In this document: positions 1 through 20,040 of the stretch, piece after piece | Layout: each line of letters starts with the position of its first letter | Position numbering within the stretch: position 1 is the first letter of the stretch | Source of the DNA: a virus | DNA: 20,040 nt | Virus record (IMG/VR): IMGVR_UViG_3300009175_001425 | Span: 1-20,040 of that record | Strand: one strand, 5' to 3' | Position numbers and translations under genes: made by a program | Notes under the pieces: model-generated | Seen by the model: only the letters and a program-made list of their open reading frames with translations | What the model was told of the DNA's origin: nothing | The model's database searches: none

Positions 1-501
1 GTCTTGTTGGTCTTCCTCTTTCTCGGGATTCTTTAGATTTTCAGAAACTGGGGAAATTTTCCCTTTCTCTTTCTTTTTCTCTGAAATATCTGTAGTAGTC
101 TCTGGTAATGGTGTACCCATTTTGGGTATTTGCATTTGCCCAAAATGGGTAAATGCATTTGTTGTTTTCCCGAATTGCTCTACGGCGTGGTAATTAATCC
201 GATACCACTTCGTTCGGTCCCTCTTGTCCTTATTATAGTTACCAACTTTGAGAAGTCCCTTACGGACTAGGGAGTCAATTGTCCGTATGATAGTGTTGGT
301 CCCCCACCACGGGAATTGCAATTGCCATTGGGTAACACTGTTATATATCCATCTAAATCCGTCGTGATTGTGTTTAGATGTCGATAACCAATAATGGACT
401 TGCTGGAGGACAATAGCCTCATTTAATCCGATTTCGGCTGCAACCTCTGGAATAATGACAAGCGGGTTCGTTTCCAATAATAACAATTTCGATTTTTTCA
501 T
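1..501 (-). CDS. DnaD-like phage replisome organizer, N-terminal part (3' end outside window)
   Basis: My translation of the minus strand from ATG at 501-499 stays open for 167 codons to the window edge. The start MKKSKLLLLETNPLVIIPEV, then IGLNEAIVLQQVHYWL, a WIYNSV segment, a winged-helix stretch TNTIIRTIDSLVRKGLLKVG and a TKWYRINY segment match the N-terminal winged-helix domain of phage replisome organizers of the DnaD/DnaB-like type, which load the replicative helicase at the phage origin. After about residue 125 the sequence becomes a charged Lys/Glu/Pro linker, where these proteins normally join their C-terminal domain. A strong Shine-Dalgarno (AAGGAG, 6 nt from ATG) supports the start. 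This gene is separated from the late operon by a terminator and a regulatory region, and its ribosome binding site is a predicted target of the antisense RNA at 542-615. Family identification is confident; the exact subfamily is not. Confidence 0.85.
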   Translation of the reverse strand, partial: MKKSKLLLLETNPLVIIPEVAAEIGLNEAIVLQQVHYWLSTSKHNHDGFRWIYNSVTQWQLQFPWWGTNTIIRTIDSLVRKGLLKVGNYNKDKRDRTKWYRINYHAVEQFGKTTNAFTHFGQMQIPKMGTPLPETTTDISEKKKEKGKISPVSENLKNPEKEEDQQD

Positions 502-502
502 A

Positions 503-532
503 CTTCACTCCTTTTTGCCCTGTTATCACTCT
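503..532 (-). promoter_or_regulatory. Ribosome binding region of the replication gene with two antisense target boxes
   Basis: Read on the minus strand, AGAGTG-AT-AACAGGGC (532-517) is followed by AAGGAGTG (513-506), which contains the Shine-Dalgarno of the gene starting at 501. Both boxes are complementary to the upstream C4-like RNA. AACAGGGC and AGAGTG pair with GCCCTGTT and CACTCT of that RNA, and AAGGAGTG can pair with CACTCTTT from the same loop (8 pairs, one G-U). This matches the known arrangement in which C4 RNA of P1/P7 pairs with target boxes at the ribosome binding site of the ant operon. That regulation occurs here is inferred from complementarity. Confidence 0.75.
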
Positions 533-541
533 AAAAAATCG

Positions 542-615
542 GGCGGCAGGCTGCCCCTAAAGAGTGCGAAACAGGGCAGTTTTTCTTTTGGGAGCAACCC
601 CAAAAGCCTGCCACC
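542..615 (-). ncRNA. C4-type phage antisense RNA
   Basis: The minus strand folds as a three-way junction of about 74 nt. The closing stem pairs GGTGGCAGGCT (615-605) with AGCCTGCCGCC (552-542), with one G-U. The first hairpin is CTTTTGGG/CCCAAAAG with a 6-nt loop (606-585). The second hairpin is CTGCCCT/AGGGGCAG (579-551), whose 14-nt loop GTTTCGCACTCTTT is left open. Size, architecture and the loop that is complementary to a box near a downstream start codon match the C4 antisense RNA class (P1/P7 c4, P4 CI RNA), which is processed from the leader of the operon it represses. The target here is the replisome organizer leader at 503-532. Loop-target pairing is mutually exclusive with parts of the second hairpin, giving a strand-exchange switch. 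The promoter is not clear from sequence. Identification is from remembered class features, not a covariance search. Confidence 0.82.
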
Positions 616-1356: not shown

Positions 1357-1390
1357 AAAAAGGACCTAGGTTACAGTCCAGGTCCTTTTT
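1357..1390 (-). terminator. Intrinsic terminator of the late operon (possibly bidirectional)
   Basis: AAAAAGGACCT (1357-1367) and AGGTCCTTTTT (1380-1390) form an 11-bp stem around a 12-nt loop. On the minus strand the stem is followed by CTTTTT, giving a classic Rho-independent terminator about 165 bp after the stop of the last late gene. The A/T-flanked stem can also work on the other strand. It insulates the structural operon from the replication leader. Confidence 0.8.
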
Positions 1391-7752: not shown

Positions 7753-8355
7753 TTACCCCTTATTCTCCTCGTGTTTTAACCAGGCATTGTGGTTCTCCTC
7801 GACCTGTTGCAACCGCTCGTTGATTCGGGTCATCTCGGTCAATATCCGATTGGTGATTTGAGTTTCTTTCAGTTGCCGCTCCGCCAGCATCACGGGTTGA
7901 TTATTGACCTGTCCACCCGTAAATAATCCCATCCGTGCATATCTGTCGGCGGCTTGTGGTGCTGATACGGTAATCCGATTTTTCTCATCATTTCCGCGCG
8001 TGGTTACAGTGTCGATTTCCTCACTGATTTTCTTTTTCTCACTCTGATATTTTTTCTCTTCAGTTTCTTTTCTTTCAGATTCGGATTTGTCATCTTTCCT
8101 GATTTTTGCCTGTAATGTCCTCAATTCCGTGGTCTTTTTAATTGCCTCCTGCAATTTCTTTTCCCTGTCAATTTCCGACAACCCTTTGTCATTAACAGCG
8201 TCCTGTAATTTTTTGGCTTCCTTTTCCAACTCAAAGGCTTTTTCTTTATCGGTCAAATTTTTATTGGAAAACTGTTCCAACAATTTTGCGGTCTTTGCCT
8301 GTTCAGTCGCCAACTCGGTAGCCTGATTTTTTTCGAGTTCTGTTTTTTTGTTTTT
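7753..8355 (-). CDS. Tape measure protein, C-terminal part in -1 frame
   Basis: This frame is open from just after a TAA at 8358-8356 to 7753. It has no ATG near its beginning; an isolated reading would need TTG at 8313 without a good ribosome site. It encodes a long charged coiled coil (FELEKEAKKLQDAVNDKG, REKKLQEAIKKTTELRTLQ) and then ADRYARMGLFTGGQ, followed by a helical end (RILTEMTRINERLQQVEENH). This layout is typical of the tail tape measure C terminus. Its natural upstream partner is the ORF at 8253-9209. A -1 shift at the A7 run 8343-8349 joins them into about 485 residues. Separate translation, or an indel error, are the alternatives. Confidence 0.7.
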   Translation of the reverse strand, partial: KNKKTELEKNQATELATEQAKTAKLLEQFSNKNLTDKEKAFELEKEAKKLQDAVNDKGLSEIDREKKLQEAIKKTTELRTLQAKIRKDDKSESERKETEEKKYQSEKKKISEEIDTVTTRGNDEKNRITVSAPQAADRYARMGLFTGGQVNNQPVMLAERQLKETQITNRILTEMTRINERLQQVEENHNAWLKHEENKG

Positions 8356-9209
8356 TTATCCGCAACCACTTTTTCCATTTCAGAAACTTTGATATCCCCC
8401 GCAATCTTGTCTGCGTTCAAATTCCCCAGTAAATCACCATTCCAAAAATCCTTGAAACTCATACCTCTGCCTAATGTGGCTAATCGGATAATGGCATCGT
8501 ATAAATTTGTCGTTGCAGTAATAGCACCAGCAAAAGTTTTCGACCCTAAACTGTCACAACTCAGTTTGAATTCTTTCAAAACCCCATTGGCAACTTTCAG
8601 TTTTGCAATAGTTTCCTGGTCAATCGCCTCACCAGATTCAATCGCCGCGTCCTTGATTCCCTGCAACCCAACAACCGCGACATCTTTTAAAAGGGGCATC
8701 AGTTCCGCCCCCATCCCACGCCCAAAAATCTCATTCAAATCTCTGATTGCCGTAGCGTCATTTTCAGCACCTTTTGCAATATTCCCAAACAATTCCTCAA
8801 TTCCCATCGATGCAACCTGCTCTGCACTCAAACCCAAATTTCTAAATGCCTGCGTGACTTGCTTATTCATTTGCACAACTTTATCTTGAGAATCAGCCAG
8901 CCTGTTCAACCCTTTAATCATTGTTTCCTGTTGGACATCAGCCTTGTATCCGGCAGCATAAAGAGCCTGTAATGACTCAACGTTGATTCCCAAAGTTTTG
9001 GATTGTTTGTCCAATTCGACACTCGTATCCATTACCGATTTTCCAAACTCAAGTATTTTGGAAACGGCAAATGCGCCACCAATAGCCCCAGCCACTCCAG
9101 CCAATTCCCCGCTGGTAAAACTGGCAACACTCTGACTCATTTTGTTGATGCCCAGTTCGAACTCGCTGGCATCAAGAGTTGATTTACTTTTTAATATTGC
9201 TGTAGCCAT
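8253..9209 (-). CDS. Tail tape measure protein, N-terminal part (frame 0)
   Basis: The frame begins MATAILKSKSTLDASEFELG, then a Gly/Ala-rich hydrophobic stretch (GELAGVAGAIGGAFAVSKIL) and the block LDKQSKTLGINVESLQALYA, which is characteristic of phage tape measure proteins ('s..lGis.e.lq.l..A'). A second typical block reads AFRNLGLSAEQVASMGIEEL, followed by LNEIFGRGMGAELMPLL. The tape measure sets tail length and helps DNA entry. Up to about residue 289 the protein looks normal; the last roughly 29 residues (SKKIRLPSWRLNRQRPQ...) are Arg-rich and non-family-like, because the true continuation is in the -1 frame. Frame-0 product is 318 aa; the shifted product would be about 485 aa, implying a short tail. 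Confidence 0.85.
   Translation of the reverse strand: MATAILKSKSTLDASEFELGINKMSQSVASFTSGELAGVAGAIGGAFAVSKILEFGKSVMDTSVELDKQSKTLGINVESLQALYAAGYKADVQQETMIKGLNRLADSQDKVVQMNKQVTQAFRNLGLSAEQVASMGIEELFGNIAKGAENDATAIRDLNEIFGRGMGAELMPLLKDVAVVGLQGIKDAAIESGEAIDQETIAKLKVANGVLKEFKLSCDSLGSKTFAGAITATTNLYDAIIRLATLGRGMSFKDFWNGDLLGNLNADKIAGDIKVSEMEKVVADKKTKKQNSKKIRLPSWRLNRQRPQNCWNSFPIKI
8312..8357 (-). promoter_or_regulatory. Candidate -1 programmed frameshift site in the tape measure gene
   Basis: On the minus strand two A7 runs are separated by C (8357-8351 and 8349-8343). In frame 0 the second run reads ..A AAA AAA C, a slippery X XXY YYZ heptamer. A -1 slip there moves ribosomes into the frame holding the coiled-coil C terminus. 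Three bases after the run, AACTCG (8339-8334) and CGAGTT (8317-8312) can form a 6-bp stem with a 16-nt loop, which is weak and closer than usual for a stimulator. Homopolymer indel error is the main alternative. Confidence 0.55.
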
Positions 9210-18612: not shown

Positions 18613-19293
18613 TCATCCCATATTGCCAATTAGATGGATGACCTCCTGCCTCAATCGGGCTCTGGCTTTTGTTTTGACGGTTGCCATTATGGTGGCAACC
18701 CGTGAGGTGGGAATGCCTAGAGTGGTTGCAACCACCCGATATGTCGGACAACCCATATCATTGTATTTTTTAAAGATTTCCCGCTCCTCCGGAATTAGAT
18801 CGTTATCCATCAACAGCCCAATCATCTCACGGGTATAAATTGCCAACTCTGTGTTATCGCTGGTGCGGATTTCCGCATCTGCGTTGGGGTCATCCAATCT
18901 GACTGGCGCAATATGCCCCATATCACGGCAGTGGTTTGTGCGTGTGACACTAGATGTCGAGTTGTGGATATGACCCATCATCGCCATTGGTCCAGCCCGC
19001 ACAACGTCCCGGCATTTGTTATGTGCTATTACAGATACCCATGTCGTCCATTGTACATTTTTCAAAGGGTTAAATTTTTTGACATCTTTGATAATTGCGG
19101 CATTGCAAATCTGCACCAGATCGTCTCGTGATATTGCGGGGTCTTGTATTTTGTGGATATAAATGGCTGTCACAATTCCGATTGGTGGGGCGGCATAATC
19201 CAATAATGTTGATAATGCCCGTTGATATGTCAGAGAGGTAGAATCTCTAGTCCTGATTATCTCAATCAAATTATTGATTTCCGTTTTACCCAT
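18613..19293 (-). CDS. Sigma-70 family-like protein, paralogue 2
   Basis: The 226-aa product has sigma-like order. DPAISRDDLVQICNAA (51-66) is followed by a helix with KKFNPLKNVQWTTWVSVIAH (72-91) and NKCRDVVRAGP, matching region 2 ('f.p..~~f.tWl..i.rn...d..R'). C-terminal LIPEEREIFKKYNDMGCPTY (166-185), VVATTLGIPTSRVATIM (187-203) and KTKARARLRQ form a region-4-type helix-turn-helix. It shares KTEINNLIE, DPA-S--DLVQ, GP and VRLD positions with the protein at 19345-20040, so the two are paralogues. The middle about 60 residues are a divergent linker. GGGGGAG lies upstream of the start. Role: likely directs RNA polymerase to phage late promoters. Confidence 0.7.
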   Translation of the reverse strand: MGKTEINNLIEIIRTRDSTSLTYQRALSTLLDYAAPPIGIVTAIYIHKIQDPAISRDDLVQICNAAIIKDVKKFNPLKNVQWTTWVSVIAHNKCRDVVRAGPMAMMGHIHNSTSSVTRTNHCRDMGHIAPVRLDDPNADAEIRTSDNTELAIYTREMIGLLMDNDLIPEEREIFKKYNDMGCPTYRVVATTLGIPTSRVATIMATVKTKARARLRQEVIHLIGNMG

Positions 19294-19344
19294 TTCCGTT
19301 CTCCCCCTGATTATGTTTAATTCGATTGTAGTATTGTATCTATA

Positions 19345-20040
19345 TTAGTTAGATTTATGGGCAAATTTTAGTCTCGCCTTTTCTCTAATTCGGTCAATGT
19401 GGCGACTCACGCTTTTCCCGCTGAGCCCTAGTGCTGCTCCGATTTCGACAAATGTCTCCCCGTCCATCTCCATTTTTTTTTGAAAAACCCGCAACTGCGT
19501 GGGGTTACAATCTGCCGTCACAATCTCAATTAGTTCTTTTTGAAATATTTCCGCATCGGTGGTGCTGGGGACCGGTATTTGCCGATATTGGTCTTTATTC
19601 GATGCCTCTCCATCGTCATCCACATATAATGGCGCATCTAGCCTTACGGCATCGCCCCGGGCGTTCTCGTAACGCTGGGCGGAAAAACCTTTTCTCAGCG
19701 TTTTTGGTTGTATGTTTTTTATCATCCCCAACGGACCACCACTCAGGCTGTTTTTGCACGCAAAACAAGCCGAACCGTATACCCAGGAGTGCCACGCTTC
19801 TACATGCGCGACTGTAGTTAGATTCCGAATGCTCTTGATGATTTTGACATTACAATCCTGGACTAGATCCTCGCAACTAACAGCGGGATCTTGTAATGAT
19901 CGGGCATATCGATGGGCTGCATTTTTGATGGCTCTCTCCGCCAGAATCAACAGCCCTGCCATAGCATTTTTATAATCTTCTGATTCTGGGTCTGCCGTTT
20001 TGACTGTCTCAATCAGATTATTGATTTCTGTTTTATCCAT
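19345..20040 (-). CDS. Sigma-70 family-like protein, paralogue 1 (start at window edge)
   Basis: The 231-aa product begins at the last base of the window. The true start is probably this ATG, because its first residues MDKTEINNLIE align with the start of the paralogue MGKTEINNLIE, but the ribosome site is outside. Region-2-like features are DPAVSCEDLVQDCNVKIIKS (51-70) and EAWHSWVYGSACFACKNSLS (81-100). Region 4 is TQLRVFQKKMEMDGETFVEI (181-200) and GAALGLSGKSVSRHIDRIRE (201-220), a clear helix-turn-helix with KARLKF at its end. Linker residues include an acidic insert (YVDDDGEASNKD). It may act on phage promoters, as a partner of or antagonist to the second paralogue. It is separated from that gene by 51 bp. 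Confidence 0.7.
   Translation of the reverse strand: MDKTEINNLIETVKTADPESEDYKNAMAGLLILAERAIKNAAHRYARSLQDPAVSCEDLVQDCNVKIIKSIRNLTTVAHVEAWHSWVYGSACFACKNSLSGGPLGMIKNIQPKTLRKGFSAQRYENARGDAVRLDAPLYVDDDGEASNKDQYRQIPVPSTTDAEIFQKELIEIVTADCNPTQLRVFQKKMEMDGETFVEIGAALGLSGKSVSRHIDRIREKARLKFAHKSN

Follow-up and report, generated by a model that had tools for sequence, protein, structure and literature searches.

A phage three-way-junction RNA, closest in architecture to int-alpA RNA, with a loop complementary to the ribosome site of a DnaD-like replication gene

C4 antisense RNAs, known from the phages P1/P7 and P4, fold into a three-way junction in which the two hairpins touch and hairpin 2 is joined to the closing stem by a linker of 7-8 nt. 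For P1, whose C4 RNA has been characterised, the hairpin-2 loop is complementary to a downstream box, and in P4 the sequence can be read in the same way, with UCCUGUGAA complementary to TTCACAGGA at a Shine-Dalgarno. C4 RNAs with this order undergo processing and target ant mRNA (PMC5320573, PMC12197685). According to a proposal of long standing, quoted in PMC12197685, there is a broader class of loop-antisense RNAs with C4 as its prototype.

A second three-way-junction family, int-alpA RNA (RF02996), has a consensus that runs from the closing stem through UA, hairpin 1, an A-rich linker, hairpin 2 and CU to the second strand of the closing stem, followed by a U-run and a terminal uaAgGG. The consensus loop reads aaCCuUua and is thus complementary to the box, uaAgGG, with which the model ends. 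The family is found in 39 of 369 genomes when the class of a Serratia genome is sampled, and a phylum sample around a Desulforudis genome has it in 2 of 299. It was reportedly described by Weinberg and colleagues in 2017, who may have suggested an antisense role at that time. In the literature that we searched, RF02996 is not mentioned, and int-alpA is named only within a list of predicted RNAs.

The locus described here belongs to a linear virus record of 20,040 bases, the whole of which we refer to as the window. Its recognisable genes, among them terminase, portal, head protease and tape measure, are on the minus strand; the late genes are followed by ∼1 kb without clear genes, then by the RNA element and finally by a DnaD-like gene. 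The initial annotation had described a minus-strand junction RNA of 74 nt together with a downstream complement of its loop, and this observation is confirmed. The features of the locus are as follows.

542..615, minus strand: three-way-junction RNA of 74 nt (MFE -39.1 kcal/mol, z -4.43)
615-607 with 550-542, minus strand: closing stem, 9 bp
606-585, minus strand: hairpin 1, 9 bp with a 4-nt loop
584-580, minus strand: A linker (AAAAA), 5 nt, between hairpins 1 and 2
579-551, minus strand: hairpin 2, 7 bp with a 15-nt loop at 572-558
558..578, minus strand: antisense segment UGCCCUGUU-UCG-CACUCUUUA, formed by the 5' arm and loop of hairpin 2
533..541, minus strand: tail of CGA and UUUUU(U) directly after the closing stem, U-run at 538-533, intrinsic-terminator-like
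516..532, minus strand: target box 1, AGAGTG-AT-AACAGGGCA, with 9 + 6 Watson-Crick pairs to the loop and arm of hairpin 2
506..513, minus strand: target box 2, the Shine-Dalgarno AAGGAGTG, an alternative 8-bp partner of CACUCUUU and counterpart of the int-alpA SD-region box
1..501, minus strand: DnaD-like helicase loader or replication initiation gene, start codon 501-499, cut by the contig end
771..799, minus strand: candidate sigma-70-type promoter upstream of the RNA, TTGACG-17-TAATAT (consensus scan, 9/12)
1362..1379, minus strand: candidate late-operon terminator (consensus scan), separating the late operon from the RNA-DnaD unit

Folding of the minus strand gives a junction of exactly 74 nt at 615-542, and none of 200 shuffles reached its stability. 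The large loop of hairpin 2 is likewise found where it had been placed; its predicted length is 15 nt (572-558) rather than 14 (572-559), and the other coordinates were right. The U-run of the tail sits where the int-alpA consensus has its own. An RCCA-like 3' end, a recognition feature of RNase P, can be read in the C4 RNA of P4, and the sequence of the window RNA has no RCC(A)-like 3' end. C4 RNAs are matured at the 5' end by RNase P at GGW; for the window RNA we considered an RNase P-matured 5' end and set it aside, its sole support being that the RNA begins with GGU (615-613). At the DNA level, the element forms an inverted repeat (532-552/605-625) with a GC-rich stem and A- and T-runs on both flanks. 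On the plus strand, TTTTTCTTTT comes after hairpin 2 (550-595), and the element could also terminate transcription of the opposite strand. A plus-strand match to Rfam RF02846 (Ref84) scored 31.2 bits, below the 52-bit threshold.

The loop and the adjoining bases of hairpin 2 are complementary to box 1, as initially proposed, in two runs set apart by 3 and 2 nt. The nine bases of UGCCCUGUU (578-570) pair in full with 524-516, and CACUCU pairs with 532-527, for a duplex of 15 Watson-Crick pairs and -23.7 kcal/mol. When the target was shuffled, two runs totalling at least 15 bp occurred in 0.085% of cases; when the loop was shuffled, they did so in 0.055%. Box 1 is the sole such site in the window: apart from the locus itself, neither strand of the 20 kb holds a complement of at least 13 bp. 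The second proposed partner, the Shine-Dalgarno, also stands up to reading of the sequence, with CACUCUUU facing AAGGAGUG (513-506) over 8 bp that include one G-U. The loop matches are CACTCT/AGAGTG at box 1 and CACTC/GAGTG at the Shine-Dalgarno. The latter lies 29-36 nt downstream of the closing stem on the same strand, and 40 nt separate the closing stem from the start codon, compared with ∼34 nt in most int-alpA loci. A junction structure and an antisense site did not occur jointly in any of 300 shuffles.

The gene that begins beyond these boxes encodes a protein whose residues 7-145, its N-terminal domain, match phrog_6493 (PHROG 6493; profile match, E 1.7e-43). This match agrees with the target named at the outset, a DnaD-like replication gene with its ribosome site in the pairing region. 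The protein shares 34-45% identity with ten aligned phage homologues and up to about 60% within the N-terminal domain (tblastn), and it matches replication initiators of Bacillus and Staphylococcus phages in their N-terminal domain. Three promoter-like sites were seen compared with 4.5 expected by shuffling, and the candidate at 799-771 is weak on its own. The initial annotation had further supposed that silencing takes place in a lysogen. This part finds no counterpart in the record: neither an integrase nor a repressor was recognised among the searched ORFs of the 20-kb fragment, and nothing among its recognised genes points to a temperate phage.

Between the candidate promoter and the RNA (684-733), short minus-strand repeats resembling GGCATCTCTNA recur with a period of ∼11 bp and are possibly iterons or operator sites. 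An exact 16-bp direct repeat, TTACGGATCTAAATCC, occurs at 1209-1246 in the region without clear genes, the copies being 22 bp apart. Two overlapping frames, 8253-9209 and 7753-8313, share the tape-measure gene (7753-9209), which is split at an A-rich stretch, consistent with either a programmed frameshift or a sequencing error. Beside the packaging genes, two adjacent genes (18613-20040) have weak similarity to RNA polymerase sigma factors (phrog_351).

Covariance models place the window RNA in neither described family. The C4 model RF01695, which the initial annotation had suggested running, gave no match at E <= 10 over 400-760 (gathering cut-off 45 bits) and scored 74.9 bits on P4 and 68.8 bits on P1 as positive controls. 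RF02996 gave no match to the window at E <= 10 (gathering cut-off 35.8 bits). We also built a model, R1, from 28 int-alpA and int-alpA-like sequences; at the window element it produced partial matches of 6-10 bits only, the best of them on the wrong strand. Membership in C4 or int-alpA under a single model was rejected because there is no covariance match to either.

We then asked how int-alpA loops relate to the sequences downstream of them, using 50 int-alpA loci (L315-L364) with start codons picked by a heuristic. Forty-one entered a permutation test (eight were not parsed by the script and one had no clear start), in which boxes were swapped between loci 10,000 times and the mean longest complementary run was recorded. 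Loops matched their own box 1 with a mean run of 5.02, compared with 3.86 after permutation (sd 0.14), and their own Shine-Dalgarno region with a mean run of 5.32, compared with 4.14 (sd 0.15); in both tests, none of the 10,000 permutations reached the observed value. The outcome was unchanged with one locus per distinct loop; permutation in general removes relatedness among the loci only in part. Since the Rfam model does not extend to the second box, this box is not selected for by it; in most loci it is the Shine-Dalgarno of the next gene. The three helices are themselves backed by covariation, with 92% of cells paired and 107 double-changed cells among 28 sequences. Most of the next genes are unassigned, and those recognised include DnaD-like proteins, a helicase and endonuclease VII. 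At L361 and L356, for example, the loop, box 1 and Shine-Dalgarno match over 7-8 bp. That the hairpin-2 loop covaries with two boxes suggests that the int-alpA family acts as antisense RNA, and the loop/target covariation for which the initial annotation had wanted relatives searched is borne out among the int-alpA relatives.

Relatives close to the window phage were sought, and none was found in the collections searched, whether by the DnaD-like protein, the terminase or RNA patterns. One search returned two matches, both due to chance in coding sequence, and the exact target pattern matched viral contigs four times, always in one unrelated coding sequence. As the window phage lacks close kin, we instead scanned the regions upstream of DnaD-like genes. 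Loci of DnaD homologues (80 + 80 viral and 80 genome) were gathered, and upstream regions were scanned with a script that scores structure plus antisense complementarity. Among the loci so scanned, a convincing junction was seen only at L117, where the loop CCCUGGCC pairs with GGCCAGGG, overlapping the Shine-Dalgarno of the DnaD-like ORF (0 of 300 shuffles). A class search yielded L263, with the same layout ahead of a DnaD-like gene, and the downstream genes of both loci belong to phrog_6493.

The sequence pattern common to L117 and L263 (GGGCTA...CCGGYTGCCC) occurs at 37 loci and includes some further cases. Most of the 37 are chance matches without the extension of the closing stem and without a target. 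A scan of seven pattern loci identified them through RF02996: L280 (46.1 bits), L117 (38.9) and L303 (38.9) scored above the 35.8-bit cut-off, and L263 (32.3 bits) and L279 fell just below it. The RNAs at L117 and L263 share with the window RNA their layout, a DnaD-like target and the complementarity of the loop to a ribosome-site box; they differ from it in that their sequences and arms are unrelated to its own and match or nearly match RF02996. At L298 (3689-3774), an int-alpA-like RNA lies directly ahead of a phage DNA helicase gene (phrog_16, E 1e-96), and its loop CCTCC faces the ribosome site GGAGG.

The window RNA is probably a divergent phage antisense RNA of the C4/int-alpA type that represses the DnaD-like replication gene. 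This reading draws on the fold, the complementarity, the identity of the gene, the same layout before two more DnaD-like genes and the loop/box covariation of int-alpA. Under such a model, the leader of the DnaD-like gene would be transcribed from upstream, and much of this transcription would probably stop at the U-run past the three-way junction, yielding a small RNA of ∼80 nt. On transcripts that read through, the loop and arm of hairpin 2 could then bind either box 1 (532-516) or, as an alternative, the Shine-Dalgarno of box 2 (513-506), and this pairing would block ribosome loading on the replication gene. Titration of the RNA, or a change in its transcription, may be what ends the resulting low level of replication. 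Termination, the small RNA, pairing in trans rather than purely in cis, and repression of the DnaD-like gene are the steps that we infer.

An element acting purely in cis seems unlikely to us, although it accommodates some of the same observations. Here the junction would remain within the DnaD mRNA, and its loop would fold back on box 1 or the Shine-Dalgarno of the same molecule as a long-range pseudoknot. Having RNA and target on one strand, with the Shine-Dalgarno box 29-36 nt downstream, would favour pairing in cis; the U-run after the closing stem, as in int-alpA, would however free the RNA before its target is made, and C4 RNAs of that arrangement undergo processing and target ant mRNA (PMC5320573, PMC12197685). 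That the element only separates the late operon from the replication gene as a terminator, its loop complementarity being incidental, is less probable again. The late operon has a candidate terminator of its own at 1379-1362, and termination would call for neither a three-way junction nor a loop of 15 nt nor a unique complement of 15 bp at a ribosome site, even if the GC-rich stem flanked by A- and T-runs (532-552/605-625) and the plus-strand TTTTTCTTTT after hairpin 2 are what a terminator would offer. That the hairpins and short repeats are instead a DNA structure of a replication origin beside the initiator gene is highly improbable: ∼1 kb without clear genes, short repeats (688-723, 1209-1246) and the adjoining replication gene would suit an origin, but the element is strand-specific, since only a minus-strand RNA makes sense of the order of loop, U-run, box, Shine-Dalgarno and start codon; in addition, relatives of the element precede other genes (helicase, endonuclease, unknown) at sites that are not obviously origins.

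Beyond this locus, we regard it as an evenly balanced question whether C4, int-alpA and the window RNA represent one design that recurs across phages and mobile elements, namely a terminator-like three-way junction with a loop that is antisense both to a box and to the following gene's Shine-Dalgarno, the silenced gene being a replication initiator in a subset that includes this phage. If so, replication in that subset would be gated by RNA rather than by a repressor protein, and the int-alpA family would acquire a function. Through the window case and its relatives, the loop-antisense class gains many members and two target boxes that are reproducible, and int-alpA, an unexplained Rfam family, gains a testable mechanism. 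In several phages or prophages that are unrelated, the direct target appears to be a DnaD-type initiator, and RNA control of the onset of phage replication can therefore be tested with a reporter.

Comparison with the two described families clarifies where the window RNA stands. As in the C4 RNAs of P1/P7 and P4, a three-way junction lies upstream of its target on the same strand, and the hairpin-2 loop is antisense to a downstream box and a ribosome site. Unlike C4, however, the window RNA carries its linker between the hairpins and none ahead of the closing stem, ends in a U-run instead of an RCC(A)-type end and has a DnaD-like gene as its target. The initial label of a C4-type RNA thus holds for the layout (junction, antisense loop and downstream target in the same transcript) and fails for family membership, given the RF01695 result and the position of the linker; 'C4' fits as a proposed mechanism and not as a family. 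The resemblance to int-alpA extends further. Both have a junction with an A-rich linker of 5 nt between hairpins 1 and 2, a U-run directly after the closing stem and then a box complementary to the loop, and, as at most int-alpA loci, the Shine-Dalgarno of the following gene provides the second complementary box. The window RNA differs in its hairpin 1 (9 bp compared with 4 bp) and its loop (15 nt compared with 9 nt), lacks the UA and CU junction nucleotides and extends its pairing into the hairpin arm. The window RNA has int-alpA anatomy and would work like int-alpA and C4, and by sequence it is not placed in either family. These likenesses may stem from common origin or from convergence. The nearest known architecture is that of int-alpA RNA (RF02996), not that of C4.
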